Below, piece after piece: positions 10,332 to 50,810 of a DNA stretch of 64,000 nucleotides. A program made the position numbers and the translations under genes. Below the pieces are notes generated by a model. The model was not told where the DNA came from, did not search any database, and worked only from the letters and a program-made list of their open reading frames with translations. This stretch comes from Eutreptiella sp. 'Long Island Sound 2002' (lineage: Eukaryota; Euglenozoa; Euglenophyceae; Eutreptiales; Eutreptiaceae): NCBI GenBank assembly GCA_964036045.1, contig OZ038378.1, positions 186,905,128-186,969,127 on the forward strand, given 5' to 3'. Numbering within the stretch: the stretch's first letter is position 1; every line of letters begins with the position of its first letter.

Positions 10332-10332
10332 C

Positions 10333-15237: not shown

Positions 15238-15240
15238 CTA
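15238..15240 (-). promoter_or_regulatory. gag-pol UAG, element B
   Basis: On the minus strand gag ends GCC CCC TAG CGG AGC. The frame remains open through the stop into the protease. The arrangement equals that of element A (UAG, then S-GG AGC). CGG after a stop is a known readthrough-favouring triplet in several RNA viruses. Confidence 0.6.
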
Positions 15241-25569: not shown

Positions 25570-25780
25570 TTAGGTTCCTCTCCTCTCGCCTTCCCCGCCT
25601 TGTCCCTCTGTCCCTTTTCGCCGGCCTGCCCTGCCTGCCTACCCTCCTCGTACCCGCTGGGTTTGCCTTGGCTGGACGGTTGGTCTTGGTGGTCTGACAT
25701 GGTTCTTCCTTCCTGCAGGGGGGCGTGGGCTGGGTTCGTTTTGGGGGTGGGTTGCTCGTGTGGTGTGCCGTGCTGCGTAT

Positions 25781-28560: not shown

Positions 28561-28670
28561 ATTGGCACAAAGGTGGGTCGGGAGGTACATGGAGAAGGAC
28601 AAAGGAAGAGAGAGGGTGCGAGACGGAGGGCGTGGCGTGTTAGAAAACCATTTTTTTTCCCGGTTCTTAC

Positions 28671-30810: not shown

Positions 30811-30826
30811 ATTTTTGCTATATTGC
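30811..30826. repeat. Target-site duplication, left copy
   Basis: ATTTTTGCTATATTGC, 16 bases, repeated exactly at 50795-50810. Between the copies lies the GC-rich 19,968-bp insertion; outside them lies AT-richer coding of an older element. Confidence 0.93.
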
Positions 30827-33800
30827 AACGCCAGCCCGCAGGGGCGCACGCTGTGGGGCCGGTGCTGGGTCCCCACGCCCGCAGCGACCGCACCCGGGAC
30901 ACACGGGAGGCGGAACCCTGGCTGCCCGCTCCAGAGGACGGGCGGCCGGGGAAGGGACAGCGCCTGACACCACGCGCCCCTCACAACGGTGGCAGGCCAC
31001 CCCCCCCGGGGACGGCCCCCCACCGGCCCCCGCGGCATGCAGCCCCCACAGGGCATGCAGGCCGCGGGGACGGTGTTGGGCTCCCGCACCGACACATCCG
31101 CGCCCACAGCACGTGGGTGGCGGACCCCATCAGCCCACCCAGTGGGCGGGCAGTTGGGGGAGGGACGGCGCCTGGCCTCAGACGCCCCCCACAACGGTGG
31201 AAGGCACCCCCCCGGGGATGCCCTTCCGCCAACCCCACAGCGAGCAACGCCGGCTCGCAAGGGCGCACGCTGTGAGGCCGGTGCTGGGTCCCCACGCCCG
31301 CACCGACCACACCCGGGACACACGGGTCGCGGAACCCAGGCTGCCCGCTCCAGAGGACGGGCGGCCGGGGGAGGGACAGCGCCTGACACCTGGCGCCCCT
31401 CACAACGGTTGCAGGCCACCCCCCCCGGGGATGGCCCGCCGCCACCCCCGCGGCACGCAGCCCCCACAGGGCATGCAGGCCAAGGGGACAGTGTTGGGCC
31501 TCCACACCCACACACTCGCACCCACAGCACGTGGGTCGCGGACCCGAACAGCCCGCCCAATGGGCGGGCAGTCGGGGGAGGGAGAGCGCCTGACCCCAGA
31601 CGCCCCTCACAATGGTGGAAGGCACCTCCCCTGGGGACGCCCTTCCTTCACCCCCACAGCGAGCAACGCCGGCCCGCAAGGGCGCACACTGTGGGGCCGG
31701 TGCTGGGTCCCCACGCCCACACCGACCGCACCCGGGACACACGGGACGCGGAACTCTGGCTGCCCGCTCCAGAGGACGGGCGGCCGGGGGAGGGACAGCG
31801 CCTGACACCAGGCGCCCCTCACAAAGGTGGCAGGCCACCCCCCCCGGGGACGGCCCCCCACCGCCCCCGCGGCATGCAGCTTCCACAGGGCATGCAGCGG
31901 GGACGGTGTTGGGCTCTCAAACCCACACACCCGCGCCCACAGCACGTCGGTGGCGGACCCCATCAGCCCGCCCAGTGGGCGGGCAGTCGGGGGAGGGACG
32001 GCGCCTGACCACAGACGCCCCTCACAATGGTGGAAGGCACCTCCCCCGGGGACACCCTTCCGCCACCCCGACAGCGAGCAAAGCCGGCCCGCAAGGGCGC
32101 TTGCTGTGGGGCCGGTGCTGTGTCCCCACGCCCGCACCGACCGCACCCGGGACACACGGGACGCGGAACCCTGGCCGCCCGCTCCAGAGGACGGGCGGCC
32201 AGGGGAGGGACAGCGCCTGACACCAGGCGCCCCTCACAACGGTGGCAGGCCACCCCCCCCGGGGACGGCCCCCCACCACCCCCGCGGCATGCAGCTTCCA
32301 CAGAGCATGCAGCGGGGACGGTATTGGGCTCTCAAACCCACACACCCGCGCCCACACCACGTCGGTGGCGGACCCCATCAGCCCGCCCAGTGGGCGGGCA
32401 GTCGGGGGAGGGACGGCGCCTGACCACAGACGCCCCTCACAATGGTGGAAGGCACGTCCCCCGGGGACGCCCTTCCGCCACCCCCACAGCGAGCAACGCC
32501 TGCCCGCAAGGGCGCTTGCTGTGCGGCCGGTGCTGTGTCCCCACGCCCGCACCGACCGCACCCGGGACACACGGGACGCGGAACCCTGGCCGCCCGCTCC
32601 AGAGGACGGGCGGCCGGGGGAGGGACAGCGCCTGACACCAGGCGCCCCTCACAACGGTGGCAGGCCAGCCCCCCCGGGGACGGCCCCCCACCACCCCCGC
32701 GGCATGCAGCTTCCACAGAGCATGCAGCGGGGACGGTGTTGGGCTCTCAAACCCACACACCCGCGCCCACACCACGTCGGTGGCGGACTCCATCAGCCCG
32801 CCCAGTGGGCGGGCAGTCGGGGGAGGGACGGCGCCTGACCACAGACGCCCCTCACAATGGTGGAAGGCACGTCCCCCGGGGACGCCCTTCCGCCACCCCC
32901 ACAGCGAGCAACGCCGGCCCGCAAGGGCGCTTGCTGTGCGGCCGGTGCTGTGTCCCCACGCCCGCACCGACCGCACCCGGGACACACGGCACGCGGAACC
33001 CTGGCTGCCCGCTCCAGAGGACGGGCGGCCGGGGGAGGGACAGCGCCTGACACCAGGCGCCCCTCACAACGGTGGCAGGCCAGCCCCCCGGAGACGGCCC
33101 CCCACCACCCCCGCGGCATGCAGCCCCCACAGGGCACGCAGGCCAAGGGGACAGTGTTGGGCCCCCGCACCGACACATCCGCGCCCACAGCACGTGGGTG
33201 GCGGACCCCAACAGCCCGCCGACCGGACGGGCAGTCGGGGGAGGGACAGCGCCTGTCCTCAGACGCCCCTCACAATGGTGGAAGGCACCCCCCCCGGGGA
33301 TGCCCTTCCTCCACTCCCACAGCGAGCAACGCCGGCCCGCAAGGGCGCACGCTGTGGGGCCGGTGCTGGGTCCCCACGCCCGCACCGACCGCACCTCGGA
33401 CACACGGGACGCGGAACCCTGGCTACCCGCTCCAGAGGACGGGCGGCTAGGGGAGGGACAGCGCCGGACACCAGGCGCCCCTCACAACGGTGGCAGGCCA
33501 CCCCCCCCAGGGACGGCCCCCCACCACGGCCGCGGCATGCAGCCCCCGCAGGACATGCAGGCCGAGGGGACAGTGTTGGGCCCCCACACCCACACACCCG
33601 CGCCCACAGCACGTGGGTGGCGGACCCCAACAGCTCGCCCAGTGGGCGGGCAGTCGGGGGAGGGACGGCGCCTGGCCCCAGACGCCCCCAACAATGGTGG
33701 AAGGCACCCCCCCCGGGGAGGCCCCCCCGCCACCCTCACAGCGAGCAACGCCGGCCCGCAAGGGCGCACGCTGTGGGGCCGGTGCTGGGTCCCCACGCCC

Positions 33801-34377
33801 GCACCGACCGCACCCGGGACACACGGGTCGCGGAACCCTGGCTGCCCGCTGCAGAGGACGGGCGGCCGGGGGAGGGACAGCGCCTGACACCAGACGCCCC
33901 TCACAACGGTGGCGGGCCACCCCCCCCGGGGACGGCCCCCCACCACCCCCGCGGCACACAGTCCCCACAGGCCATGCAAGCCAAGGGGACGGTATTGGGC
34001 CCCCACGCCCACACACCTGCACCCACAGCACGTGGGTGGCGGACCCCAACAGCCCCCCCAATGGACGGGCAGTCGGAGGAGGGACAGCGCCTGACCTCAG
34101 ACGCCCCTCACCATGGTGGAAGGCGCCCCCCCGTGGGGACGCTCTTCCGCCACCCTCACAGCGAGCAACGCCGGCCCGCAAGGGCGCACGCTGTGGAGCC
34201 GGTGCTGGGCCCCCACGCCCGCACCGACCGCGCCTGGGACACGTGGGTCACGGAACCCTGGCTGCCCGCTCCAGAGGACGGGCGGCCGGGGGAGGGACAG
34301 CGCCTAACACCAGACGTCCCTCGCAATGCTCGAAAGCGCCCCCCCCGGGGACGCCCATCCGCCACCCCCACAATGAG
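30827..34377 (+). repeat. 5' higher-order tandem array (415-420 bp dimers), likely promoter monomers
   Basis: GAGCAACGCC recurs near 31242, 31661, 32076 (variant), 32491, 32906, 33324, 33743 and 34163, steps of 415-420. Each dimer has two related halves of about 205-215 bp sharing GGGGGAGGGACRGCGCCTG and CACAACGGTGG. There are about eight dimers plus a terminal half unit. The array starts inside a unit exactly at the target-site duplication and ends about 80 bp before the first ORF, as mouse L1 monomers do. The central 415-bp units are the most alike. Long ORFs across it are composition artefacts. Confidence 0.85.
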
Positions 34378-34455
34378 CAACACACCAACGCATAAACGCA
34401 CCAGCCACGGTACATCCGCACCCCACCCCCTGCTCTTAGGCAAAGCGACACAACA

Positions 34456-35400
34456 ATGGCGGAACCCGCGGCTCCACGCAAAACACACCCCCGATCTCGG
34501 ACACTGGACGAAGCACACGAGGTCATCAGGGCGCTGGGACTCAGAGACGGCGAAGGAGACCCCCCACAAGGGGACGCGGGCACGGACTCCGACCTGGAGG
34601 CAGTACCGGAGCCCCCCGCGGGAGGCGCGCCCGCGGAACCTGCGCCGCCGGCGGGCAGCGTGCCCGCTCTCTGCCCCGCGTGGAAACGGGGCCACTGCAC
34701 CGGCGAAGGCTGGTGCCCCAAAAAGCACCCCAAGCCCGGCCCCGATGACAGAGGGCTGCCCGAGGTGAAACCCGCGGCCGCATGCGCCGCCCTACGCTAC
34801 GGGGTGGCGCAGGGCTGGATCCTGGATGAGACCGCGCGCGGCAGCGTGAACATCCAGGAGGCCGTCGACCGAGTCAGCCACGCGGGACAGGCGGCAGTGG
34901 CCTTGCACACCAGGGGCCGCCACGGCGGACCCGCGGAGGGGATCATTGTAGAACCCTCGGGAATGGTGCTGGTCCTGGCGGCTGACATGGTCCGAGGGGT
35001 GCTCCACGCGTCCCGCCTGCGGCGGGCGTGCCCACAGTGGACCATCCAGGTGTACACCCCCCCACGGGCGTGGCCCTTCTCCACGTGGGCGGTGCTCGCC
35101 GTCATGTGGCACCTGGCACCGGAGGACGCCCCCACAGGGACCGCGGAGGACATCGCCCGGGACCTCCACACCTGGCCGGCCGACCAGGATTACCCCTGGC
35201 GCAGGCCCCGGGGCGGCCTCCCAGTGGCACCCGCGGCAGAGGGGCTCAGCCTCGCGGCAACCCTCCAACGGCATCCCGACAAGAAGGCACGCCACTTCCT
35301 GCAGACGGGCACGGCCCCGGCCACCCCGCCAGACTCCGAGTGGCGATGGGACGCATGGGCGGCGCAACTGCTGCCGGGCCCCTGGACCCTCCCGTTGTAG
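34456..35400 (+). CDS. LINE ORF with CCCH zinc finger
   Basis: 314 codons from an ATG about 80 bp after the repeat array, so it is the first ORF of the element. Residues about 74-93 read CPAWKRGHCTGEGWCPKKH, a C-X7-C-X5-C-X3-H finger of the RNA-binding CCCH type. The rest is a compact alpha/beta-looking domain (IIVEPSGMVLVLAADMV) of no recognised family. It ends in TAG at 35398-35400; the same frame stays open afterwards, with an ATG ten bases downstream (35410). Likely role: an ORF1-type RNA-binding protein of the retrotransposition particle. Confidence 0.75.
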   Translation: MAEPAAPRKTHPRSRTLDEAHEVIRALGLRDGEGDPPQGDAGTDSDLEAVPEPPAGGAPAEPAPPAGSVPALCPAWKRGHCTGEGWCPKKHPKPGPDDRGLPEVKPAAACAALRYGVAQGWILDETARGSVNIQEAVDRVSHAGQAAVALHTRGRHGGPAEGIIVEPSGMVLVLAADMVRGVLHASRLRRACPQWTIQVYTPPRAWPFSTWAVLAVMWHLAPEDAPTGTAEDIARDLHTWPADQDYPWRRPRGGLPVAPAAEGLSLAATLQRHPDKKARHFLQTGTAPATPPDSEWRWDAWAAQLLPGPWTLPL

Positions 35401-35403
35401 TAT

Positions 35404-37035
35404 TTGTCCATGGGCACCCTGGCCCACGCCACCCAGGCCGTCAAGGGGGCTTTCCCGCAGCCGCTCCTCCCCGGCGTGGCCCTGCTCCGCAGCCTGCAGG
35501 CGGGGGCCGCCTGGGTACGGTGGAAGGAAGGAAAGGGGCGCTCGAGCCCCTATTTCCCCCTGGTCCAGGGCCAGGCGCTGCTCCACGCCGAGGGCACGGG
35601 GACCGTGGAATGGGGGGCGATCATGCCCGGTACGGCGTGCAGTTGGATCACAGCGGCCGCCCCACAGCCCATGCGATCGCCGCCGGCGTGCCACCGCCTC
35701 CTACGGATGGTCCCCTCTTTGGCCCCCCAACACGCCTTTACGAGGGACGTGTGGAAGGCCGTACTGAGCCACATCAGGGAGTGGCTAACGAACCCGGGTG
35801 CATGGTACCCGCCGGGGCTGGTGCTCGAACAGCTCACGGCCCCCACAGGCGAGATCCTCCACGCCCTGCACAGGGCGTCGGCTCTCACGGAGCAGCTCAA
35901 CGACGAAGTGCTGGACCTGGCGCTGGAGCCGCTGCGGGTGCTCTACCCGCAAACCCACATCCCACCCGCAGGCACGTCCAACTGCCTAGGCCGCCTGGGG
36001 TTGCAGCGCCGCGTCGAGGCCGCGCACTCAGGAGGCGTGGTGGAGCAGTGGCTAACGCTCTGCAACCCGTCCACCGCGGAAGGCCACTGGTACCTGAACC
36101 AACTCCTCTTCCAACCACAGGCAGCCCCGGAACACCGCCGGCAAAACCCGTACCACACGCACCCGGAGCGCCAAGGCGCGCAGGACTTCCCGCAGCCAGT
36201 CCCGCCCGCCCTCCTGCCGGGACAGGACCCGGAGGCGCTACAGCAGGGCCCCCCGCTCGACACCGCCACCACGGTACAACAGAGGGGACGCGACGGCGTG
36301 GATGGTGCCGAACCGAGCGTCACGAACTGCGGAGCGGTGGCCTGGATGGCAGCCTGCAGGCACCTCGCCCGAGATACCACGGGGCTCCGGCAGTACAGAC
36401 CAACGGACCGCACGGCGCTGGCTTCCGCGGTCGCGGCCGTCACCATGGGTCCCTTGGCGGCGTGGCCGGCGCAACTGCTGCCCCACGTCCCCTGCCGCGA
36501 CACGCAGCCCCGCCGGCCGGCTGCAACGCACGCGCCGACGGCACCCCTCACGGCGGAGCAGCTATACGTCGTCGCGGCGGGGTTGCTAGCGGACGGCGGG
36601 GAGAGCTTCGTCCACCACCACGGCCCGGCGCAGATTGCGGGAAGCATACAAGGGCGACAGCGCGATGCACCAGACCCGTGGCATGCCACACTCCGCGGGC
36701 GCACCCGCGTCTGGGATGCGGGCGATGGCACACCTCCAGCCGGGCCTAAGCAGGGGGAGGCACTGGTGCTGCAGACGGCAGGCTACCAGGCCATCCTACA
36801 CGGCCACGCCGGAGGGTACTGGTCGCACGTCCTGGCCGGAGGACGCTGGACTGTCTGGCACAGCACCGCCAGGCAAGGGGCATTCCCACCCCTGCCCCAC
36901 GTCAACTGGCAACAGGGGCCCAGCCAGGCCTACTATATGTCGGTGGACCCCTGGCCGCTGGCGGTTCTGCTACACACCGTCATCGCCCCGAACAAGAGGC
37001 AGGAACCGGGGTGGGTCAACCCCCCCCCACACTGG
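35404..37035 (+). CDS. LINE ORF with cysteine-protease-like region
   Basis: Same frame as the CCCH ORF after its TAG; first ATG at 35410. The central region has SVTNCGAVAWMAACRHL, and about 160 residues later HGHAGGYWSHVLAGGRWTVW and then HST. A Cys box followed by a G-(H/Y)W..G.W box is the order of papain-fold deubiquitinases (UCH/USP/Josephin), and OTU-type proteases are known from some LINEs. The assignment is tentative. Real coding seems to end near 37020-37030, where a run of nine C lets the frame slip; the formal ORF runs on to 37272 with Arg/Ser-rich shadow sequence. Confidence 0.6.
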
Positions 37036-37418
37036 TGTGGAGCCCCGACCAGGAGGAGCATCTACGGGCCGCGTGGCAGGGAGACGCCATTAGGGCCACG
37101 GACGTCCCGGACCTCCACGCGGGGCCAATCGCGCAAGCCCGCCCGGCGGCTACCCTGGCGGTGGCCCAACGGGGACAGCAGAACCTGCAGTGGGTGGTAT
37201 GCATGTTCGGCCCGGCGGACGCGCACATCGTCGTCTGCGACACCGAGCGCCTGCCGGGGCCCGAAGCCGTGATCCGCGTGGCAGACTGCACCCGCATGAT
37301 CGTCAAGGCGCTACAGGAGGGCGAACACCACGCCCTCCTGCTCCAGGTCAGGCTGAAGGACAACGCCCGGGCGGCGAGGTTGGGGTGTGGCCGGCAGCGG
37401 CGCACCCCGCCGACCTAG
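37011..37418 (+). CDS. LINE ORF continuation after C-run frame change
   Basis: Frame reached from the protease ORF by losing one base at the C9 run at 37020. It encodes a protein-like stretch (LQWVVCMFGPADAHIVVCDT, CTRMIVKALQEGEHHALLLQ) before turning to shadow sequence near 37390, where a second one-base shift leads to the next part. It has no ATG of its own, which suggests a broken or frameshifted continuation rather than a separate gene. Confidence 0.5.
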   Translation: MGQPPPTLVWSPDQEEHLRAAWQGDAIRATDVPDLHAGPIAQARPAATLAVAQRGQQNLQWVVCMFGPADAHIVVCDTERLPGPEAVIRVADCTRMIVKALQEGEHHALLLQVRLKDNARAARLGCGRQRRTPPT

Positions 37419-38152
37419 AGCTCCAGCTGGCGGTCCCGACCGCAGTGTACCACTGGCTACAGGCCTTCCACGACCTGCGATGGAGGGGCAAGCCCGACCG
37501 CCAAATCGGCTAGACGCACTGGCAAACGTGGCTGCAAGCAGACGCGCAGCGCGATGCCATCCGGGGTCTCGGGCCCGCGCCCGCGACACGAGCCCTCGAT
37601 GCCGCGGCCTCGGGCCGCACAGTGGCGCCACACACGGTGCCACTGGCCAACCTGCCATTCGAACCAGCGGCGGAGGGCGCCATTTGGAAGTCGGTGCCGC
37701 TCCCCCCGGCGCGGGGGGCCACGGAGCCGACGAAATGCCCCCTGTGTGCAGACAAGTACTACACATGCGGGGGAAAGGTGGAACACCTGGCGAGGCACGC
37801 GGTGCACGCTGCAGCCCCGGCAGACGACAAGGAGGCGGCCACCAACATCCTGCAGGGGAGAGCACGGAGGTCCCCATGGCACGCCCCGTACACCCGGCGC
37901 CCCCCTCCCCAGGCAGCCAACCACGCAGACGGAGATGCGGAGGCACCCGGAGCGGCCCCGGGGACCGGCGGTGGGGCCCCACCAGAGTCCATGTCCATCC
38001 TCGCGGGGCTGGCCCCCCTGGCCCCCCTGGCTCCCCTGGTCCCCCGGGCCCCCCTGTGGGCCCCGCTGGGAACGGGCTCAGCGGATGCGGCACATCCCGA
38101 TGCAATGGCTGCGCCGGCGGACCCAGCGGCGATGCCGATGCGGGAGAGCTGA
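37391..38152 (+). CDS. LINE ORF with C2H2-type zinc finger, upstream of EN-RT
   Basis: Begins in frame with ADLELQLAVPTAVYHWLQ, is interrupted by TAG at 37511-37513, and then continues in the same frame (THWQTWLQADAQRDAIRGLG) to KCPLCADKYYTCGGKVEHLA and RHAVHA, a C-X2-C..H-X3-H finger like those N-terminal to some LINE endonuclease/RT proteins. A Pro/Ala/Leu repeat (LAPLAPL) follows. It stops at TGA 38150-38152 and the EN-RT ATG (38165) is 12 bases later in the same frame. Confidence 0.6.
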
Positions 38153-38164
38153 CTCCAGGAGGAC

Positions 38165-41100
38165 ATGGCGGGCGACGCCCTGTGGCTCCTCTCGTGGAAC
38201 CTGCGCAACGGCCTCGTGCCGCCAGACCGGTCCCTCCGGGACACTCTCCGGCAGCGCCGGGGGCCGGCGGCCTGCACCGACAAGGAGCACCTCATCACCG
38301 GCATGCTACCCCAGGAGGGGGGCTTTGCCATCATACTCCAGGAAACGAGGATCGCCACCCTGGCGCAGGAGATGCACGTGGCCGCGGCGCTCCGGGACAA
38401 GGGGTACACCGCGTTCTTCAGCAGCCGGCTGGCGGAGACGGGAGCCACCTCCACCTCGAGAGGGGGGGGCCTCCTCACCGCCGTCAGCAGCAAGTACATG
38501 GCGGAGCACGAGGTGCTCAGTTTCACGGAAATTGTCCCCGGGAAGGCCGCGGCCCTGGAGATCGGCACGGACGGGGGAGGCCTCACCCTCATCAACGTCC
38601 ACGGGCCGCAAGCAGGCTGCTCCCCGTGGGCGGGACGGGCGGCGTTCTGGGCCGACATACAAATGTATGCCACGGCACGCAGCCTCGGTGGGAGGCACCC
38701 GGTGGTCATCGCTGGCGACACCAACATCTACATGGATGTCCCCACCAACCCGGCCACGGAGCACTTCCGAGCGGGCTGGGAGGCCTGCGGTTTCCGAAGG
38801 GCCGCGGCAGGCGGCGAGGAGGAAATGACCCCCACGCACCACCCGTCCCGGCACAGGGTGGACACCTTTCTGGTCAACGAGCCCCTCCTGCCGTGGTCCC
38901 TGCGGGAAAGCGTCTGGGCTCGCGGCATGGCGCACCCCCAGGGGATCGGCTCGGACCACCTCCCGGTCCGCCTGGCCCTGCGGGGTCTCCTCAGCGCAGC
39001 GGGGCGCGCGGCGATGCCCACCCCCTACAGCCACACGGAGGGCCGCCTCCTCCCGTACGACGCCGAGGCCGCACCCGTCCAACACTGCCTGTGGGCGGCG
39101 GTCACCGCCGCGCAGGATGAACCCTTCCTGGCGCCATGGCTGGGTCCTGCAGAGCAGCACAACTACGGGTCCATGCCCGCGGCCGCGGTGGACAAAGTTT
39201 TCGAACACCTCCACGCGACGCATGACGCCCTGGCGCGTGTGGTGGGACGCCGGCAGCTGTCCCCGGCGGGGACGGACCCGGCGGAGGGGGACCTCCCGGA
39301 GAGCGGAAAGAAGCTCCAGGCAGCGGTCCTCCGCTATGACACCCTGGCAGCGGGCGCGCCAGCAGCGTACCAGGCGGGCGCGGCCCGGCATGGCATCCGG
39401 TCCGAGGCGGCGCTCCGGCTCACAGAGGAGCTGCAGGGTGTGTCGCCCGGGTTCTGCCCGACCACACAGGGCCAGCTACAGGAGGAGCTGGAGAGGCAAG
39501 CAGCCGCCCTCGAGGACGACATTCGCCAGCTCCACGCACTCCTGGCGGCAGACCGCAAGCGCGCCATCAAGGACTTCTGGCGCCGCCACGCCCCCGACAT
39601 CGCCCAGCGATGGAAAGCCGTGCGGGGAGCCATGGAGGTAGAGGCCCCGGGCCCGTCAGGTTTCTGGAACGTGCGGGTCCCCAACACCCAAACGCTCCTC
39701 ACGGAGGCCCACGACGTGATGTTCGCAGTTCGCGCCTTCTGGCGAGAACTGTATGACAAACGCCTGGTGGACCTCCCAGGCTTCCAGGCAGTCCTCGGCC
39801 GCCACGTCCCCCGGGTCCCTGAAGGGGCCTGGACACAGGTCCAGCAGTACTCCATGCAGGACCTGAAGTCCGCCCTGGACAAGGCCGATGGCAAGGCCCC
39901 AGGTCCCAACCACGTGGAGGCCCGTTTCATCAAGGCCCTCCCGGCACCCGTCCAGTGGCTCCTGGTCCACTCCTACCGGGCCATCCTCCGCGGCGCCCCG
40001 CCGCCGATGCACTGGAGGGACGCGCACATCTGGCTCAGCCCCAAGGTACCGAGCTCTGCCAGACTGGACGACTACAGGCCCATAGCTCTGGGCCAGCTGG
40101 ACATGAAGCTGCTCACGGGCCCCCTCACCAAGCGCATCACGGAAGTGCTCACACGGCACAGAGTGGTCAGCGACTGGCAGCTAGGGGCCCTCCCTGGCTC
40201 CAACGCAGGCCCCCCGCTGTTCATGGCACAGCGGCAGCTCGAGCGAGGAAGGCCCAACTACGTCTTCTCCTTGGACACCCGCAAGGCCTTCGACACCGCC
40301 CCGCACGGCGCCCTCCACCTCATCCTGCGCCACCTCTCCGTGCCACCGGACGTCATCGACCTCCTGCTCTTCCTCCACACGTGCGCCAGGCTGCGCATCG
40401 TCACAGCACACGGGCTAACGCAGCCCGTCTACGTGCTGCGCGGCGTCCGGCAGGGCAACCCCGAGAGCCCCCTACTGTACGCGCTCCTCCTGGAGCCCCT
40501 GCTCAGGGCGCAGGGGCACCGCCTGCGCCCGCCGGGAGGGGCCGAGCACGGCCTCGTCCAGGCCTACATCGACGACCTGCTGGTGGTGGCCCACACGCTG
40601 CAGCACTTCGTCGAGGGCGTGGAGGCGGTGGCCGCGTACCTGAGGATGATGGGCATGGAGCTCAACCCCCGCAAGTGCGCCATGGCCACCACGGAGGGGG
40701 TCCCGGGCCTGCAGCTGCGCCTCTGTCCCCACCTGAAAAACCCGTGGCACTGGGTACCAGCGGCGGACTCCGTCCCCTACCTGGGACTCCAGCTGCAGCC
40801 GGACTGGGAGTTCTCCCTGCAGCGCAAGCACCGGCTACGCCTGGCGGCGGTGCACCACTGGTGCCTTAACACCCTCGCGCCACCGAAAGTGGTGCAGGAC
40901 GTCATCCTGGCGATCCTCGGGGGGGTGACGCAGTACGTCGCCCCTTTCATCGCCGACGACTCCGACACTGCACGCCACCTGGACCACATCACGGTCCAGG
41001 TCGCGAAGGACAGGGCGCGGTACGCCTTCGACGCCTCGCGGGACAGCCTGCAGGATGACCGGACCCTGGGGCTCACACGGGTGCCAACGCGGTGCCAGCA

Positions 41101-41692: not shown

Positions 41693-43083
41693 CCCCGGAC
41701 GGCCTGCGCCTCCACGTCGGGGGCTACCGCCGCCGGGACGGCCTATCCCCCCCCACACGGGGGGCGGCGTACCACCCGCCGGCAGCCCTCATGTACATCG
41801 TCCGCAACGTACTCGCGGAAAGCGAGCACCAAGAGCCTAACGCGGACGTGGCATGGCCCGAGCCCCTGCGCCCCCGGCCCCACGCGCCGACGCCGTTGTG
41901 GTTGGTGACCACGGACGACCAATGCACCCAAGCGACGGGGCAGGCGCAGCTCCGGGCCGAGTGGGTAATATTTCAGGCCGGGGCGGGCCAGCCCGAACCC
42001 TGTGGGCTCCCCCGTGGCACCGCCCTGCTAGTAGCTACGGGGGTGCCGCACGACCCACACATGGCCATGCACGCGTTGGAGGACCAGCCAGAGGACACAG
42101 GGCACCTGGTGGTGCACCAGCGCGGGGGCCCGGCGTGGCTCAAGGAACATGTGACGGCACTTCGGTCCTGCGCAAGCACGATCACTGGAGCGGAGATCCG
42201 GCTGCACCACCACCCGGCGATCAGCCTCGGCGACACCAGGGCGCTGAGCGTGGACCAACTGACCCCCAGCGACCCCGACGTCCGGTGGCACTCCGCCGAC
42301 CTCAACGCGGGGTGGCTCAGCCCCAGGGGATACTACTGGATCCCGGAGGCCTGGGGTCACACCTCTTCCGACGCGTCCGGGGGCGGACCCTGCAAACACG
42401 CCACCAGCGTCGCTGTCGCCGCCGACCTCACCCGCACGTGGGCGGTGGCCATCTCGGGCAAGGTGCCCGACGGGGAGGGGGTCGCCGCCTCCCTCCCCCT
42501 ACAATACGGTGCCCACCGACCATGTGTCCACACGGTGGACGCCGAAGTCATCCTCCACCTCCTGCGGCACGCAGATTGCGAGCGGACCACGGGGGTCCCC
42601 GCGGGCGCAGCGAAGGTGGTGAACCAGATGCCCCTGCGGTGGCTCCGGGACAGCCTGTGCGCGCGAGGGCAACACGCCGGGCTACCGTTCTGGTACGTCC
42701 GAGCCACCTCGCACCACAGTGACGCCCTACTGCACAAGGCGGACTGGGCGGCGTCCCAGGACACCGTCCTGCAGAACACGCCCCCGGACCCTGGCCACGC
42801 CCAACTCATTGTCGCCGGCCGTGACGGCCATCTCGATCTACGGCCCCCCACGATGCGGGTGCTCGGCGAGGTCGCGCAGCAGGCGCAGACGGACCATGCG
42901 CTGACGCACCGGGGACACACACCTTTGGGCGCGGCCCACGCCACAGCCTATGTCCACGCCCGGGACCTCACCGCGACGGCCAACAACCGCCGGGCGCTGC
43001 GGGCCCGAGACGGCCACACGCCGGTGCAGCGCAGGCTCCGCGTCCGTAAGGAGCGGCTCTCCGGCGTCGCCATCGTCCCGTAA
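41545..43083 (+). CDS. LINE RNase H region
   Basis: Protein-like sequence begins about 41690 (TPDGLRLHVGGYRRRDG) in the -1 frame relative to ORF2, so it is probably fused to RT by a frameshift or a lost base. It has TSSDASGGG (Asp at 42370), TVDAEVILHLL (Glu at 42544), and later TSHHSDALLHKADWAAS, matching D, E and final D of RNase HI domains found after RT in several LINE clades. It ends in TAA (43081-43083), but the same frame runs on into a zinc knuckle. RNase H would degrade template RNA during second-strand synthesis. Confidence 0.8.
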   Translation: MPPSAGAHQPPRVARRLGPPLPHHRHAGRPPEARPPHDTKQDAHTGPRVTPDGLRLHVGGYRRRDGLSPPTRGAAYHPPAALMYIVRNVLAESEHQEPNADVAWPEPLRPRPHAPTPLWLVTTDDQCTQATGQAQLRAEWVIFQAGAGQPEPCGLPRGTALLVATGVPHDPHMAMHALEDQPEDTGHLVVHQRGGPAWLKEHVTALRSCASTITGAEIRLHHHPAISLGDTRALSVDQLTPSDPDVRWHSADLNAGWLSPRGYYWIPEAWGHTSSDASGGGPCKHATSVAVAADLTRTWAVAISGKVPDGEGVAASLPLQYGAHRPCVHTVDAEVILHLLRHADCERTTGVPAGAAKVVNQMPLRWLRDSLCARGQHAGLPFWYVRATSHHSDALLHKADWAASQDTVLQNTPPDPGHAQLIVAGRDGHLDLRPPTMRVLGEVAQQAQTDHALTHRGHTPLGAAHATAYVHARDLTATANNRRALRARDGHTPVQRRLRVRKERLSGVAIVP

Positions 43084-44835
43084 CCGTGCCTCCTATGCGG
43101 TGGCCCGGAGGAGACCCTGGTGCACATGCACGTGGGGTGCGCCCACTCACAGCTCCTCTGGCCCCACTACCGCCAGGCGGTACACGAGGCGGCCCGCCAC
43201 CTCCCACCCGGGGACAAAGCCCTCTGGGTGGCCTCGTGGCGCTCCGCAGGCGCCACATGGACGGAAGTCTTCTGCTCCGGACTGGTGCCCGAGGACGCGG
43301 AGGCGCAGCTCCGCGCCATAGCCTGCTACGACCCGCCGGGAGGGACCTCTGTGGACGATTCCCTCCACCACATGCTCCGGCTGGGGGACTTCGCATGGGA
43401 ACTTCGCAACCACCGGCTGGAGCAACTCCTCCGCGAGTCCGTAAGCACGGCAGCCCGGGCACACCGGTGGCTCACTGCGGCGGAGGGCGACCACGCTCTC
43501 CCTCCCCCGCGCCCTGACAAGGACTTCGTAGCCTCCCTCCGTGTCGTGAATGGCACCCTGGAGTGCCCGCCCCAAGAGGGCCCCCACCCGTACCAGGACC
43601 TGCCGAGGCACCTACAAGACGCCCTTTTCCCACCGTGGATCATCGGGCGCGCCTCCATGACCGCTCGGGAGGCGCGCATTGTGGGTGAGGAGTGGGCGCG
43701 CGAGTGGGGCCGGTGTTGCGCCGCCACGCGCGCCCCGGAGACCCCTGCGCAACGATACGCCGCCATCCCGCTCAAGGGATGGGGGCCGGACACCCGGCCG
43801 AGACCCACCGTGATCCGCGGGGCGGGACCTGGCCACCCGTGGGACGCGGCGACGGGGGAATGGCTGCAGGCGGCCCCAGGGCTGCAAACGGGATGGACTG
43901 GGGACGTGTCCTCACTCGTCAGGACACCCGTCCTGCCCCGCATCGTCCTTCACGCCGCCAACGTACTCCGGGCTACGGAGATACGCACGTGGGGACACGC
44001 CGCGGCAACCGTCCGGTGGCACCCCCCAGAGGGCGGGGCCGCCCAGCTCGCCCTGGCGCACTTCAAAGCTGGGGGGCCGGTATACGACGACGCCCTGTCC
44101 CGGCTGGGCGACACCCAGGGGCCCTTGCTCCTCATGCTCCCCACCAACATTGCAGCCGCGCTGCGCCAGGAGCTGGACGGCTGCGAAGGGCTGCGAGTGG
44201 AATGGGAGGCAGTCGCAGACGGCACCCTGCTGGCCCTCCTCCACCGAGACACCGCAAACGGGTGCCGATGGGATGTGCTGACGCCCCACCTCACCGGGTG
44301 CCACGTGTACATGGGAACCCCCCCCCAGGGGCACCCCCGCCCGGCGTGGGACGACCTCATCGCCGCCTTCCAAGACCACGGGATCCTCTCCGACGACACG
44401 TGGCAGGAGGTCCAGCGGAAGACGCTTGGCAAGGACTACCGGCGCCGCGTCCGCACCCGCCTGCTGGAGATCCGGGACCCCCTCCGACAGAGGTGGGACG
44501 ACCTCTGGCTCCGCCATCTCGACCCTTGGTCGCCGCCCTCCCACCTCCCACACACCTGCCGACTCTGCGGGGAATGTGACACGGTGTCCTCCGCAGCGTC
44601 GACAGGCGCCAACAGGTGCGCGCGGTGCACCCAGGTGGCCGCGTGCCCCTCGCCCGAACCTCCCGCAGGCCCGCGCAGGCGCACAGAGGAGGAGGCCCTG
44701 CACCGGCGCATTGAGGGGGCACACACCCCCTCACACGAACGAGCGGGCCCCGCGGGTGCTGCCCTTCTGTGGATCCACGTGCACCTGCGGGACCCCACAT
44801 CCGTTGCGCACCTGTCGCACGTGTTCGCGCCCTAA
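43084..44835 (+). CDS. LINE C-terminal part: CCHC knuckle and unknown domain
   Basis: Directly after the TAA and in the same frame: CLLCGGPEETLVHMHVGC (43087-43140), C-X2-C-X8-H-X4-C, the knuckle commonly found C-terminal to LINE RT/RNase H. It is followed by LLWPHYRQAV, and about 500 further residues match no family I recognise. Near the end a zinc-ribbon-like CRLCGECD..CARCTQVAAC occurs. A second endonuclease domain here would parallel Dualen elements, but no PD-(D/E)XK motif was seen with confidence. Ends in TAA at 44833. Confidence 0.65.
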   Translation, partial: PCLLCGGPEETLVHMHVGCAHSQLLWPHYRQAVHEAARHLPPGDKALWVASWRSAGATWTEVFCSGLVPEDAEAQLRAIACYDPPGGTSVDDSLHHMLRLGDFAWELRNHRLEQLLRESVSTAARAHRWLTAAEGDHALPPPRPDKDFVASLRVVNGTLECPPQEGPHPYQDLPRHLQDALFPPWIIGRASMTAREARIVGEEWAREWGRCCAATRAPETPAQRYAAIPLKGWGPDTRPRPTVIRGAGPGHPWDAATGEWLQAAPGLQTGWTGDVSSLVRTPVLPRIVLHAANVLRATEIRTWGHAAATVRWHPPEGGAAQLALAHFKAGGPVYDDALSRLGDTQGPLLLMLPTNIAAALRQELDGCEGLRVEWEAVADGTLLALLHRDTANGCRWDVLTPHLTGCHVYMGTPPQGHPRPAWDDLIAAFQDHGILSDDTWQEVQRKTLGKDYRRRVRTRLLEIRDPLRQRWDDLWLRHLDPWSPPSHLPHTCRLCGECDTVSSAASTGANRCARCTQVAACPSPEPPAGPRRRTEEEALHRRIEGAHTPSHERAGPAGAALLWIHVHLRDPTSVAHLSHVFAP

Positions 44836-44874
44836 CCCCCACCCGCCGCCGCCCTTTGCAGAGCCCGCAGCACC

Positions 44875-46107
44875 ATGCCACGCCGACAGGGGGATTGGCC
44901 GGGACACACCAGGGCCCGCCGCAAAGCGCAGGAGGCGGCCGTCCGGGGCCTGGTGGCGGACGCGGTGGCAGAGGTACACGGGGCGCACGCTGCCGCACGG
45001 TGTGACCTGACGGGCAGTGCGAGGGCTTTCTTCAAAGAGACCACCCTCCCGGCCGTCCGCGCCCTGAACGGAGCGGCGGCCCCTACGCTGCTCCCGGCAA
45101 TGCACCGGATCGTGAACGCCGTCCAGCCGGGGCTCATCAGCCCGGAGGCGGCCCTCTACGGGCACTGGATGGAGTGGCGCGAGTCCAACCAGTCAGGCCG
45201 GCCCCTGTCCATGGGGGACACCTTGCGGCTGACGGAAGCAGGGTCTGCCATGTCCCTCCGCAGCAGCGCCCCAGCCCTGCTGCACGCCCTCAGGACGCGC
45301 TACCCCGGGGACGCGGCCCCGTACCTGAACCAGGCGCGGGCCACGTACCCGGGGGGAGTGTCCGAGCTGGATGCGGCGCTCCACCTTCTGCACCCACCGG
45401 ACGAGGACCTGGAGGTGGGCGAGATCACAGTGTTCGTGGAAGGCGCGGACGAGGCGTCCGCCCGCTCCCGGCCGACCAACCCAGTGTACGACGGCACCAG
45501 GCCTACCCTCCCGTACGCCATCGTATGGGAGGCGTTCCCCAGGGAGCCCACTTGGTGCCCCGCCCTCCCGCCGGCGACGCACGCGCCCTGCGGCTGGGCT
45601 AACCACGACCTGCCCCCCCCCCTCTCCAGAACCAGGGGTGCCCACCACAGGGCGCAGGTCCTCTGGCAAGAGTGCCCTGGCACCCCCCTGCTCCTCCTCG
45701 TCGTCGCGACCCGCGGGGACCCGGGGCGGGTCCTGGGGATCACCCCCACCCACCTCTATGGGGCAGCACCCGTACCCCGCCCCCCCCTCCCGGCGCCCGC
45801 GGCGCGGGACGGAGTACACACCTTCCTGCGAACACAGGAGGTCACCGCCGTTACGGGGGTCCACCTGGTGCGGCTCCCCCCGACACCACTCGACGACCCC
45901 CGGGGGCCCAGGGCCCTGGGCCCCGCCCCAGACTGGGAGCTATGGCGCGACGCGTGGGCCGCGTGGATCCCCCGCCTCCCCTCCCAATGCCGGTGGATGG
46001 CCGCCGGCCCCCGGCCGTGCGGGGCTGACGACACAGCCGGTCCCCCTGCCCCTCCCCCCCTCCCCCCCGCGGAGCACCACACGGCACTGCCCACGGCACG
46101 GCACTGA
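44875..46107 (+). CDS. LINE downstream ORF, unknown function
   Basis: 410 codons from ATG 44875, 40 bases after the previous stop and in the same frame. The N terminus is basic (PRRQGDWPGHTRARRKAQEA), the middle has alternating hydrophobic pattern (SELDAALHLLHPPDEDLEVG, EITVFVEG), and the end is Pro-rich. No family recognised. Its TGA (46105-46107) overlaps the next ATG as TGATG, a stop-restart arrangement. It lies inside the target-site duplication limits, so it belongs to the element or was carried by it. Confidence 0.6.
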   Translation: MPRRQGDWPGHTRARRKAQEAAVRGLVADAVAEVHGAHAAARCDLTGSARAFFKETTLPAVRALNGAAAPTLLPAMHRIVNAVQPGLISPEAALYGHWMEWRESNQSGRPLSMGDTLRLTEAGSAMSLRSSAPALLHALRTRYPGDAAPYLNQARATYPGGVSELDAALHLLHPPDEDLEVGEITVFVEGADEASARSRPTNPVYDGTRPTLPYAIVWEAFPREPTWCPALPPATHAPCGWANHDLPPPLSRTRGAHHRAQVLWQECPGTPLLLLVVATRGDPGRVLGITPTHLYGAAPVPRPPLPAPAARDGVHTFLRTQEVTAVTGVHLVRLPPTPLDDPRGPRALGPAPDWELWRDAWAAWIPRLPSQCRWMAAGPRPCGADDTAGPPAPPPLPPAEHHTALPTARH

Positions 46108-48099
46108 TGCACCAGGAGGTAGTGGGAAGGGCGCGCCTGCCACCACGCATGCCTACCAGGATAACAGTGATGGCAGACTCCGATGGCTCCCCCCAGCGGG
46201 ACGACCGCCACCACCGCCGGTCCCCCTCTCGCTCCCCCGCCTCCCCGGAGTGGACGGGGGAGACCCTCGCGGAGCGCGAGGAGCGGAGGCTGGCGGAGGC
46301 GGCGGTGCTGGTCGGGCTGCCGCCGCCGGCCCAGGAGCCTGAGCCAGCCGAGGTGACCGCCCCCGCCGCCCAAGCAGCAAGCCCCGCCGCCCCGCCCCGG
46401 GGGGGGGGGGGCAGACGCGCAGGAGGCGGAGACCGCAGCCCCAGCGAGCCACGCCGCGGCCTCAACCGCGGCCCCCGGCACGCCGCCGACACGGGGGGTA
46501 GCCCCGGCGCAGGAACCGGGCGCATCGCTGAGGGCTGCCGCAGCCGAAGAGGAGAGCGAGAAGGGCGCGCGAGGGGTGGCGACGGCAACCCCGGCAGGCC
46601 GCGCCACCGCCTCGGCCGACCACGCCGCGACCCCCAGCACGCCGCGAAAACGGGGGACGGACCCCGCACGGGCCACAGGCGCCTCGCCAGCGGCCGCCAC
46701 AGCAGCGAAGGAGAGCGAGGAGGGCGCGCGAGGGGTTGCGGCCGCGACCCCGGCGGGCCGCGCCACCGCCTCGGCCGGCCACGCCGCGACCCCCAGCACG
46801 CCGCGAAAGCGGGGGACGGACCCCGCACGGGCCACGGGCACCTCGCCGGCGGCCGCCACAGCAGCAAAGGAGAGCGAGGAGGGCGCGCGAGGAGTTGCGA
46901 CCGCGGCCCCGGCGGGCCGCGCCACCGCCTTGGCCGGCCACGCCGCGACCCCCAGCGCGCCGCGCAAGCGAGGGAAGAACCCCGCACGGGCCACGGGCGC
47001 CTCGCCAGCGGCCGCCGCAGCAGCAGCAGTGGGCAGGGAGAGGGCGAAGTACCGCGCCCACGCCAACCCCACCCACACCCACACCAGCCCCCCCAAGCGG
47101 TTCCCCCCCAAGCCCTTCCCCCCGGGGCGGGCGCGGCACGTCCGCCCCCCGGCGCCCGAGCGCTCGCCGCCAGGCGTCACGCTGCCGCAGCTACAAAGAC
47201 AGCGGGACGCCCGGCGCGTGATCCAGGAAGGAGGGGAGGGCGCGCAGGCAGAGCTGCGTGCCAGCCACGGGAGCGCGGAGCGGGGGGCAGGAGGCGACAG
47301 GGGAAGTGCCCAGGAGCGCGCACAAGGAGCGGGCCAGGGCACGCGCCGCAGGGAGCAAGGGCGCAGCAGCGGGGGGGAGCAGAGCGCAGGCAGCGGACGG
47401 CGCGACTCGGGGCAGGGGGCCGGGAAGGGACCAGGGCACGGGAAGGGCGCGCAGGGGCACGGGCAGGGAGCCCAGGTGCAGGGGGCAGGGAGAGGGGCGG
47501 TGGGTGAGCGGGCGGGCCAGGGCGTGGGGGACGGGGGGCGGAACCCGCGGCACGGGCAGGGGGCTGGAAAGGGACCCAAGGGCAAGGGCAGGGGCGCCGC
47601 GGGCCCCAAGGGACAGGCGGGACGGGGCATGGGAGCCCAGAAGGGAGGGCGGGACGAAGTGAGGGGGGCAGGGAGCGGGGGACCCCCGCAGCCGGACGTG
47701 CAGCCTGTGAGGTGCATCCCCCCCGGCATCCAACAGATGCCGGCGCACCACACCCACCACCACCACCACCACCACCACCACCACCAGCTCGACAACATCG
47801 ACCCTGACGCCGGTGAGCTCGTCCCCCCCCAACCCCCACGACCCCGGCACCAGCCAGCCCCCCCCGCGCCGAGGGCGGAGCCGGCGCAGATGGCCTCGGG
47901 AGAGGGGGGCGGGGCGCGACATCGGCGCCGCAGGCACAGGGGCAGTGAGGGGAGCCGTCGCGGGGGGCAGAGGGGGGCTGGCCATGGGACCGGGACTCGG
48001 GCGCGGTCCCGGACCCTCTGGGAGAAGAGGCCCTCCCCCTGGTGGGGGAGCTGTACGGGTGGTTGTGCTGGGCCAACCAGGGGACCACCAGGGGGTTGA
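46107..48099 (+). CDS. LINE terminal ORF with 53-residue repeats, basic low-complexity
   Basis: Starts at ATG 46107 (TGATG overlap). The N part (RSPSRSPASPEWTGETLAER) leads to a G12 run near 46400, where the frame moves by one base into an Ala/Thr/Lys-rich frame with three to four 159-bp repeats (AGRATASADHAATPSTPRKR, KESEEGARGV). A Gly/Gln/Arg-rich stretch, a poly-His run and an Arg-rich end follow. It looks like a disordered nucleic-acid-binding protein. Exact frame use in the last 600 bp is uncertain. Confidence 0.5.
46480..47030 (+). repeat. 159-bp tandem repeat inside the terminal LINE ORF
   Basis: CCCCGGC steps at about 46589, 46748 and 46907 show a 159-base (53-codon) period, in phase with the reading frame; a fourth copy is partial. 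Confidence 0.85.
47750..47786 (+). repeat. (CAC)n microsatellite encoding poly-His
   Basis: Eleven or more CAC/ACC triplets in a row, read as His in the terminal LINE ORF. Confidence 0.85.
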
Positions 48100-48407
48100 G
48101 GAACCGGTCTTTCGATGCTGTGCTCCTCCGGAGAGACGGAGGAAACCGAGAGGTACCCCCGGGGGGGGGGGCAGCCCCAGAGGACCATGAGAGGGTCCTC
48201 AGGTCAGTGATCCGGACGGCGTGGCCCGACAGGGAGCGGACATGGCCGGCCTTCCTCGAAGGGGGAGCGGTGCTCCGCATCACGGATGCGGACGCCAACA
48301 ACTGGCTCCCCCGGGCTTTGCGCAGCGCCCTCGCCCACTGGCGCTACCGCCGGCGCAACTCGCCGCCGCCACAGCCCCAGCCCCCACACAAGCGGCGGCG
48401 CAGGTGA
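48042..48407 (+). CDS. LINE terminal ORF, C-terminal part
   Basis: 121 codons with a balanced, folded-looking sequence (GELYGWLCWANQGTTRGLRN, RSFDAVLLRRDGG, RITDADANNWLPRALRSALA) ending in a basic tail (KRRRR) and TGA. It is in a different frame from the preceding low-complexity ORF and probably joins it by a one-base shift in the G/C-rich stretch before 48040. Function unknown. Confidence 0.5.
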   Translation: MGELYGWLCWANQGTTRGLRNRSFDAVLLRRDGGNREVPPGGGAAPEDHERVLRSVIRTAWPDRERTWPAFLEGGAVLRITDADANNWLPRALRSALAHWRYRRRNSPPPQPQPPHKRRRR

Positions 48408-49726
48408 TGGCCCAGACGGCGGATGCGAGAGGGTGGGGGGAGGAGCTGGGCCCCCCGACCCACGCCCCCCCGACGGTACGGCACGATGCATGAGAGCGTG
48501 CCACCCCCCGCCGGAGGGAGGGCGGAGACAACGAGCGTGGGGGGGAACCTGCTGCCCCGCAGCCCGCTAACCGCTGACCGCTAACCCTCACGGCCGCCCC
48601 CGGCCGGCCAGCGCCGCGCGACGACGGCCGGGCGGATTAGGGGCCCCAGCAAGGGCCTGCACGAGGGTCCGGCTCTAGGTAGAGGGGGGCGGGGGAAGGG
48701 CGCGACCCCCCAGCCGATGGCTGGCCCCCGGGGCCGGGACTGCCATGCCGCCCCCCCCCCCGGCCATCAGGAGGCGTCGCCAGGGGACCAGAGGGCCCCC
48801 CCCACTCCCTCCCCCCCCTCCCACTCAGACCCGACAGCGGGCGGGGGGGCGCCCCCCCCCCCGCACCCCCCCAAGCTGGGGCGCCAAAGGCACGGCCCTC
48901 CGCCCCCCCGGAGCCGAGGGGACGCCCCCCCCCCCCCAGAAGGGACGGCGACGCGGTGAGGGGAGCTGCGGCTGGACCTGCTCCCGTGAGCCCACGCTAG
49001 CGTGCCGGAGCAACGCGCACAACAGAACAGTACGGAGGCCGCGCCCCACATGACCCTCCCGTGACCACAGCCCACTCAGGGAGGGCGAAGGGGGGGTTCA
49101 GGTCTGCAGGGGCCCCCGGGGGAGCGGTTCACGGGCCGCCCCTAACCTCCCCCAATCCGGGGCGGCAATTCGACCCCGGCCTCACGCGCACGCCAGAAGG
49201 GAGCGCGCCGACAACATGAGGGGGGCCATGACTGAGTACCGCAGGCCGCCGCCCAGAAGGGGAGCAGGGAGGCCGCGGCGCGACAACCCCCCCCCCGCCC
49301 CCCCACCGGCCTGCAAGCCGCGGGGGCCCCGGCCCCCACCCCCCAAGGCAGGGGGGATGGTCCCCCCCCGGCCCGAGAGAGGAGCCGGAGCGCGACCCGC
49401 CCCCCCGCCCGAGCCGCCGGCTCCCACGGGGGCCGCGAAGAACAAGCGAGCTCGCGCCAACGCGCCAGGAAGCCGCACAGATCGCACCCAGAGAAGCCTG
49501 GTGAGCACCAACTGGAGTGATATGGGGGGCCACGCCCCCCATGGACAGCACAACGCCAGTGACACGCGCTTTGTTGCCTGCCCAGGGACGGCAGAGGGAC
49601 GGAATGAGGCAGAGCGCCCCCCCGCCCTACAGGCCCCCCCCCGGCCGCACAAACGGGGGGTACGGCGCAGCCCCCCCCCCCCCCCCCCCCAGCCCGCCCG
49701 CCGGCAAACGAACGCCACGGACCCGC

Positions 49727-49945
49727 CCCGCGGCGCGCAGCCCCCACAGGGCGTCCCGGCAGAGGGGACAGACAAGGGCCCCCACACCCGCACGCCCGCG
49801 CCCACAACCCGTGAATCGCGGATCCTGACAGCCCGCCAAGTGGGCGGGCAATCGGGGGAGGGGGAGCGCCTGACCCCAGACGCCCCTCGCAACAGTAGAA
49901 GGCACCCCCCCCGAGGACGCCCTACCGCCACCCCGACCATTCCAA
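49727..49945 (+). repeat. Copy of the 5' promoter monomer inside the 3' region
   Basis: The stretch from CGGCGCGCAGCCCCCACAGG through GGGCGGGCAATCGGGGGAGG and GCGCCTGACCCCAGACGCCC to CCCCCCGAGGACGCCCTACC aligns in order with a unit of the 30827-34377 array, same strand, diverged by roughly a fifth by eye. Confidence 0.8.
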
Positions 49946-50716
49946 GCCAAGTAGGGGGGAACCGGGACCGGACCGCCCACCCCCAAGCACGCCCGACAGA
50001 GCAAGGGACCGGGGCAGGACACGCGGAGGGGCACAGACCACGTGGAACGGCCCTACCAGCGCCCAGTGCCGGGGCCACCCGAGGTGCGCACGCCACACCA
50101 CCCAGGAAGGGGAGGAGCGGACGCTGCGGGAGCGCGAGCGCACACACACGAAATGGACACGCGGGGACTACCAGAAGGGCAACCGGACCGAGCACGCGGA
50201 ACGCACAGACCGGGTGGAATGGCGTACCAGCGAGCGAGGGTAAGGGACACCCGGACGGGACGGCCCGCCACACGCAGCGCGGAACACGCGGGGCGGGGAG
50301 GGGGAAACGAGAGAGACACAACACCAGGTACCGGCCCGAACCCCCGGAACCGGCCGCGAGCGCCACGCACACACAGACGGGGCACTGCACCCGCCAAGGC
50401 AGTACTGGCGCACAGCGCCACGCCCCAACCCCTAGGCTAGGCAGCCTCCGCGCCAGCCCAAGGGGGTCCCACTGGCGACAAGCCAGTAGCACGGGCCCGG
50501 CGGCGCCGGCGCCCTGGGCGACCACGCATTAGGGGTGCAACGCAGTGGGTAAGCGCCCGCAGCCACGGCTGCGAATTGATGCACTGACCGGGGAGTGGCG
50601 AAACGGGGAAGCCGGGGAAGGACGGGGCTCCGAGCTCTGTGAACCCGGGGGACTCCGCCACCAGGCAGGAGGTGCGTCTTGGAGGGCCCCCCACTAGGAC
50701 CTGGTGGGGAGGATAT

Positions 50717-50735
50717 CACCTGGCCCGACCAGGTG
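50717..50735 (+). other. Hairpin near the LINE 3' end
   Basis: CACCTGG-CCCGA-CCAGGTG forms a perfect 7-bp stem with a 5-base loop, about 60 bases before the tail. 3' stem-loops are recognised by the RT of several LINE families. Confidence 0.6.
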
Positions 50736-50767
50736 GCCCCCCGGGGCCGAAAGGCGTCTAGTACCCG

Positions 50768-50794
50768 CAAAATCAAACCTCAAACCTCAAACCT
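50768..50794 (+). repeat. (CAAACCT)3 3' tail of the LINE
   Basis: CGCAAAAT then CAAACCT three times, ending directly at the right target-site copy. A short heptamer tail in place of poly(A). Confidence 0.85.
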
Positions 50795-50810
50795 ATTTTT
50801 GCTATATTGC
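50795..50810. repeat. Target-site duplication, right copy
   Basis: Same 16 bases as 30811-30826. Followed by CCCAGAGGCT, which continues the coding frame interrupted at 30826. Confidence 0.93.

Follow-up and report, generated by a model that had tools for sequence, protein, structure and literature searches.

A giant LINE of about 20 kb in Eutreptiella sp. 'Long Island Sound 2002', one copy of a many-copy family

Limits and composition of the element

The DNA of Eutreptiella sp. analysed here (C1:186905128-186969127, hereafter the window, 64,000 bases) very probably carries at 30811-50810 one copy of a many-copy family of giant long interspersed nuclear elements (LINEs), a reading to which we give a probability of about 95%. 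Positions in the window are written with a leading w where they could be mistaken, and the host assembly searched comprises 2,280,300,865 bases in 2205 contigs. Our data support the 19,968 bp lying between two copies of a 16-mer as a single insertion of a retrotransposon without long terminal repeats (LTRs), flanked by a 16-bp target-site duplication; its size is about three times that usual for LINEs. The left copy of the duplication is located at 30811-30826 and the right copy at 50795-50810, both on the forward strand, as are all parts of the element described below. Exact search of the whole window found the 16-mer nowhere else, and none of 100 dinucleotide shuffles contained it twice. The last two bases of the left copy (GC) fit the phase of the adjoining repeat array too, its site was also found at a duplicated locus (L009/L010), and the 3' ends of other copies fall just before the right copy. 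GC content per kb is 64-79% across 31001-51000 versus 51-56% in the adjoining kb. A preliminary description of this DNA had proposed a non-LTR retrotransposon of about 20 kb with a perfect 16-bp duplication, a GC-rich interior and tandem 5' repeats, all of which the analysis bears out.

Copies elsewhere in the assembly

The reverse transcriptase (RT) segment, used as a query, gave 2711 first-look candidates, a number which is not a copy count; the 40 that were scored are the window's own RT and 39 other places matching at about 97%. Both sides were fetched for 10 of these 39 places (c2 to c11). Two of them, c2 and c7 (C1 at 186.54 and 186.43 Mb), represent duplications of the window's own insertion locus, with sequence on either side of the element matching the window's flanks at about 97%; c2 carries the same duplicated target site. 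A single insertion is consequently seen in three duplicated loci, at 186.43, 186.54 and 186.94 Mb, with 11.5, 6.5 and 8.5 units of the 5' array, respectively.

Concerning the eight copies with other surroundings, seven (c3, c4, c5, c6, c8, c10, c11) end at window position 50793/50794, with flanks unlike those of the window. The eighth, c9, is rearranged: its own element is interrupted at w48101, next to which lies an inverted piece ending at 50794, and c9 was excluded from the end and target-site counts. Ten further 3' ends, selected by their 3' sequence from 40 listed, all show the tail followed by differing flanks. Five copies start internally, at w37284, 37691, 38058, 38325 and 38955, which together with the constant 3' end gives the variable 5' truncation typical of LINEs. 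Pairwise divergence of the copies is 2.6-4.5% over w34456-46104.

At the 5' side, c6 (L017) and c8 (L021) have in common about 298 bp upstream of the array, with an identical start base and different neighbours. The window copy is without this leader and opens with the array, at unit position 1; since L017 and L021 extend about 298 bp further upstream, the window copy is slightly 5'-truncated and its 5' end is not the true 5' end of the family. The expectation of the preliminary description that other copies would share both ends thus held for the 3' end and failed for the 5' end. From leader base to tail, c6 measures 18,414 bp and c8 23,882 bp, inserts of roughly 1.2 and 3.1 kb included. Such whole copies bear on a reading of the 20 kb as nested or adjacent elements, namely a satellite array, a LINE and unrelated GC-rich DNA, caught between two chance 16-mers. 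Other repeats do lie nearby, and some copies contain extra DNA (c8 between w48844 and w48852, c6 near w50170), but copies on other chromosomes repeat the succession of array, open reading frames (ORFs), 3' untranslated region (UTR) and tail, and c6 and c8, whose flanks are unrelated, share both the leader base at which they start and the tail at which they end. We therefore rejected this reading, which we consider extremely improbable.

Matching ends could be read for eight separate insertions. They measure 16 bp in the window, 9 bp in c3 and at least 6 bp in c4, the duplications of c3 and c4 lying inside 12-base matches that span the junctions; elsewhere they amount to 3 bp (c6), 3-4 bp (c10, c11) and 2 bp (c5, c8). 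Inspection by eye of the 18 flanks that follow the tail, those of the eight insertions (window included) and of the ten further 3' ends, revealed no common target motif. Searches for diverged relatives of the element's proteins found none within the fetched DNA, where three matches (63-68% identity) come from fragments of copies of this family and the others have E-values of 0.2-1, and none in the viral-contig and genome-contig collections, queried with six peptide patterns each.

The 5' array and the 3' region

The tandem array (30827-34369; the repeat itself is detected over 30825-34369) consists of about 8.5 units of 415-419 bp, and each 419-bp unit is made of two halves of about 208 bp that are about 75% alike. 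The number of units is about 1.5 in c6, 6.5 in c2, 8.5 in the window, 10.3 in c8 and 11.5 in c7, and exceeds 11 in c9, where the array runs off the fetched piece. As c2, c7 and the window derive from a single insertion yet differ in unit number, arrays must change in size once they are inserted. The units are probably promoter monomers, by analogy with the 5' monomers of mouse L1 as treated in part of PMC3600994.

Sequence comparison revealed a half unit of the same array near the 3' end (49726-49934), which is also present, at 86-87%, in all three other 3' pieces tested (L012, L018, L022). Upstream of c3, an array runs in register into the 3' half unit and the 3' UTR, except that about 50 bases immediately downstream of the half unit are absent; in L036 (1-5000) the array is joined to w48724, and in both this piece and L011 it is joined directly to the 3' UTR, with no ORFs between. 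These joins are possibly deletion derivatives without ORFs, non-autonomous or recombined, and the one upstream of c3 is such as recombination between the two ends of the element might leave.

The half unit at both ends, and a product upstream of c3 that somewhat resembles a solo LTR, could also suggest an LTR-like or Terminon-like giant element that uses the 5' array and the 3' half unit as terminal repeats in replication. Against this, the ORFs scanned gave no match to an integrase (rve) or GIY-YIG domain, no Rfam ribozyme reached gathering scores, and internal 5' starts with a simple-repeat tail are marks of LINEs; no terminal repeat pair was found apart from the half unit. Terminons and the other giant retroelements covered in passages of PMC6431247 share large size, extra ORFs and tandem repeats with the present element but are Penelope-like or LTR elements, unlike the LINE of the window. 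We regard a replication of this kind as highly unlikely, if marginally less so than nested elements.

Downstream of the last ORF, a GC-rich region with 159-bp repeats and C/G tracts (46108-49725) has no clear coding signal. The most conserved 3' stretch, with the tail GCAAAA(TCAAACC)3 T, is located at 50700-50794 according to divergence in an alignment of 21 ends: the last 95 bases differ between copies by 1.2% in pairwise comparison, as against 2.7-8.3% for the remaining 100-base blocks within 48400-50699. Tail repeats, (TCAAACC)n, mostly number three, with more in L044 and L045. As for the 3' hairpin and tail of the preliminary description, the tail stands and two short hairpins occur in or near the most conserved stretch, but a stable fold of the last 200 nt does not, as it is no better than that of shuffles (z -0.22). 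No tRNA was detected in the window, nor did any Rfam family, ribozymes included, reach gathering scores; within 50300-50900 the matches were all sub-threshold.

Open reading frames and selection

Comparison of the copies supports three ORFs, the third weakly. ORF1 (34456-38152, about 1230 codons measured along other copies) is defined by shared frame, ATG and the ratio of non-synonymous to synonymous differences (pN/pS); ORF2 (38165-44835, about 2220 codons) by its frame, kept ATG, shared stops and domains; ORF3 (44875-46107, 410 aa) by a kept ATG, a shared stop and the same frame as the end of ORF2. The ATG of ORF2 lies 12 nt past the stop of ORF1 in the same frame, and that of ORF3 39 nt past the shared stop of ORF2. 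ATGs are kept at 34456 in 5/5, at 38165 in 6/6 and at 44875 in 8/8 covering copies (window counted), and stops are shared at 38150 (8/8), 44833 (10/10, TAA or TGA) and 46105 (9/10). Apart from these shared stops, the end of ORF1, ORF2, and the end of ORF2 with ORF3 occupy one frame in the window and in c2, c3, c5, c7 or c8 where these are open.

The window copy itself is decayed. Stops interrupt its ORF1, as do frame changes located between about 37.0 and 37.5 kb; in its ORF2 the frame changes near 41.66 kb and a stop occurs at 43081. None of the other copies covering these positions has its stops at 34393 (0/5), 35398 (0/5) or 37511 (0/6), and open frames span 43081 in at least six of the seven joined copies. 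The roughly ten ORF segments counted in the preliminary description dissolve mostly into decay and chance frames in GC-rich DNA. Programmed frameshifting, considered for the window's frame order F1-F3-F2-F1, was dropped, as c2, c6 and c8 keep one frame there, although each has breaks of its own. In c2, for example, one stop lies within ORF1, and ORF2 is broken as well. The longest open stretch among the fetched copies is 1975 aa of ORF2 in the 5'-incomplete c5, from its internal start to 44832, while ORF3 is open for 410 codons from its ATG in the window, c2, c3 and c7.

The pN/pS ratios were pooled over all pairs of eight copies, pairs which are not independent. In-frame values, with those of the other two frames in parentheses, are 0.53 for ORF1 (1.09, 1.52), 0.46 for the APE domain (0.94, 1.48), 0.70 for the APE-RT linker (0.99, 1.59), 0.74 for RT (0.60, 1.38), 0.67 for the part after RT (1.35, 0.89), 0.52 for the RNase H part (1.15, 1.43), 0.74 for the ORF2 C-terminus (1.13, 1.01) and 0.70 for ORF3 (0.73, 1.41).

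Several observations weigh against the giant-LINE reading. The values of RT (0.74) and ORF3 (0.70) are not separated from those of other frames, and non-coding stretches also come down to 0.62-0.67 in some frame. Four control stretches 3' of ORF3 have best-frame values of 0.75, 0.64, 0.75 and 0.62, so that a distinct signal is left for ORF1, APE and the RNase H part only. The RT is secured by its Pfam match rather than by pN/pS, and ORF3, weak in selection signal, is suggested by its kept ATG, shared stop and open length. Neither ORF1 nor ORF2 is open end to end in any fetched copy, and the RNase H, whose activity is presumed, is read from motif residues. Five of the eight separate insertions match at their ends by 2-4 bases only, which is chance level. 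Finally, the internal start of c5 (w38955) abuts a gypsy LTR and could reflect an interruption acquired later. Both c5 (L015 9193-9655) and c8 (L021 1-462) begin exactly where LTR-like DNA matching window 9870-10331 ends, c8 having its full leader at that junction and c5 beginning at w38955.

Protein domains

ORF2 contains an APE-type endonuclease domain at 38189-38959 (PF03372, E-value = 9.2e-12; 1.6e-10 in the ORF scan), with the motifs SWN, QET, GDTN and GSDH, and an RT at 40064-40795 (PF00078, E-value = 1.1e-23) whose catalytic YIDD falls within 40562-40579. Both domains belong to one ORF with APE upstream, the arrangement of APE-type LINEs. The RT is of LINE type, R2 and L1 being among its 10 PDB matches. 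The best of these is 8gh6 (E-value = 9.6e-20), and L1 ORF2p (8sxt) follows at 8.3e-15. Among the matches listed, five R2 chains occur, and only 8gh6 and 8ibw, which we take to be silkworm R2, are clearly above L1; the three other R2 sequences (3.9e-15 to 3.2e-14) are no better than L1.

Downstream of RT, the residues D-E-D-H-D at 42370-42753 form a candidate RNase H motif with spacing 35/21/58/10, close to the 38/22/54/10 of E. coli RNase HI. All five residues are kept in six of the seven other copies and four in c7, where the histidine is changed. The region had no match in Pfam or PDB up to E 10. Of the order APE-RT-RNase H given in the preliminary description, the first two parts are therefore confirmed by profile, whereas the third is seen as motif residues only. 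A CCHC zinc finger, C-x2-C-x8-H-x4-C, comes after RNase H at 43087-43140, with zf-RVT appearing only at E 9.4. In the ORF2 C-terminus and ORF3, neither reading nor Pfam (up to E 10) revealed a restriction-like PD-(D/E)XK endonuclease, and the AlphaFold model of that C-terminus is too poor to judge by (pLDDT 38.9).

ORF1 has two zinc fingers without a Pfam match: a CCCH finger, C-x7-C-x5-C-x3-H, at 34672-34728, the third cysteine of which is replaced in c8, and a C2H2-like finger, C-x2-C-x12-H-x3-H, at 37736-37798. Between them, at 36322-36864, an NCG at a helix start followed by strands with a histidine might, as a guess, be a papain-like cysteine protease; this part had no Pfam or PDB match, and its AlphaFold model (pLDDT 40.6) is too poor to use.

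Relationship to known LINEs

The element is a giant LINE with a domain set nearest to that of Dualen/RandI, although no second endonuclease was found. True membership in Dualen/RandI, with the restriction-like endonuclease lost or too diverged to see, is a serious candidate that in our judgement falls a little short of even odds. The APE domain, the RNase H motifs after RT and the possible protease would agree with it, and Dualen reportedly codes for a cysteine protease, according to the abstract of a 2005 study. The lead of 8gh6 over L1 is what a clade placed between R2 and L1 might show, but with three other R2 sequences no better than L1 this hint is weak. The simple-repeat tail other than poly(A) is a further likeness, as algal RandI has such tails in the part of PMC3747384 that deals with them, and Dualen/RandI is recorded from green algae and cryptophytes in sections of PMC8226300 and PMC12747079. 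On the other side stands the absence of a recognisable PD-(D/E)XK motif in the regions searched, for Dualen is described, in a passage of PMC3636483, as coding for both APE and PD-(D/E)XK endonucleases. The element also differs from Dualen in its length of about 20 kb, its three ORFs and its monomer array.

The family resembles other LINEs in part. It shares 5' monomers of varying number with mouse L1, which in an excerpt of PMC3600994 has a consensus of 6,000-8,000 bp, and is set apart from it by 419-bp dimeric units, RNase H motifs, three ORFs, a 3' half unit and a tail that is not poly(A). With R2 the element has in common its best PDB match for RT, one R2 chain (8gh6), and a CCHC finger, but it carries APE and shows no common target by eye in the 18 flanks. 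R2 has its CCHC finger after RT, codes for a restriction-like endonuclease and inserts in 28S rDNA. Mouse L1, for its part, has an APE endonuclease and undergoes 5' truncation, like the present family.

No 20-kb LINE was noticed in listings of open-licence papers, a search that did not extend to Repbase or protein databases, and the family is likely undescribed. As a kind, LINEs are well known; what is new is that such a size, three ORFs in one frame, monomers built as dimers and a half unit near the 3' end occur together.

Proposed mode of retrotransposition

A full-length copy consists of the leader of about 298 bp, the array of 419-bp monomers, ORF1, ORF2, ORF3, a long 3' UTR and the (TCAAACC)n tail, ORF2 being arranged as APE, RT, RNase H, zinc finger and a long C-terminus. 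The monomers would drive transcription, and ORF1 might bind the RNA through its CCCH finger. Since ATGs lie 12 and 39 nt after the shared stops, ORF2 and ORF3 may be translated by stop-restart off one RNA. The APE domain would then nick target DNA with little selection, and RT would prime at the nick on the RNA 3' end, yielding variable target-site duplications and frequent 5' truncation. Target-primed reverse transcription after APE nicking is the established route for APE-type LINEs, and it is supported here because of the fixed 3' end, the internal 5' starts, the duplications in three of eight insertions and the conserved last 95 bases.

More tentatively, and with somewhat less confidence than membership in Dualen/RandI, we consider the combined possibility that the family, at 18-24 kb in the genome, is the largest among LINEs to date and either a clade of its own or a deep branch next to Dualen; that it makes three one-frame proteins by repeated stop-restart, with the dimeric monomer array as driver; and that the 3' half monomer allows copies to shrink through recombination in the manner of solo LTRs. 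A LINE RT has to finish its RNA template in a single pass at the nick, a constraint that on general grounds should limit size. Full-length insertions near 20 kb, together with at least 39 other RT-matching places at about 97%, make this an enzyme to test for extreme processivity, while the in-frame ORFs with kept ATGs and the monomers at two ends render ideas on LINE growth and copy-shedding testable.

Neighbouring features in the window

Apart from the giant LINE, the window contains two chromodomain Ty3/gypsy elements on the minus strand (1921-9993 and 10196-18552), each with RT, RNase H, rve and Chromo domains; the first has a weak Dam methylase-like stretch (E-value = 0.0058). Two tandem repeats follow, one of 64 bp (24874-25268, 6.2 units, 90% matches) and one of 65 bp (25763-28095, up to about 35 units) with long Cys-rich open frames. 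A fragment of another RT is located in the upstream flank at 28644-29399 (PF00078, E-value = 7.3e-06, below the curated cut-off). Finally, fragments of host-like genes, with EGF, TSP1 and Ser-Pro repeats, are found at 52185-55884.

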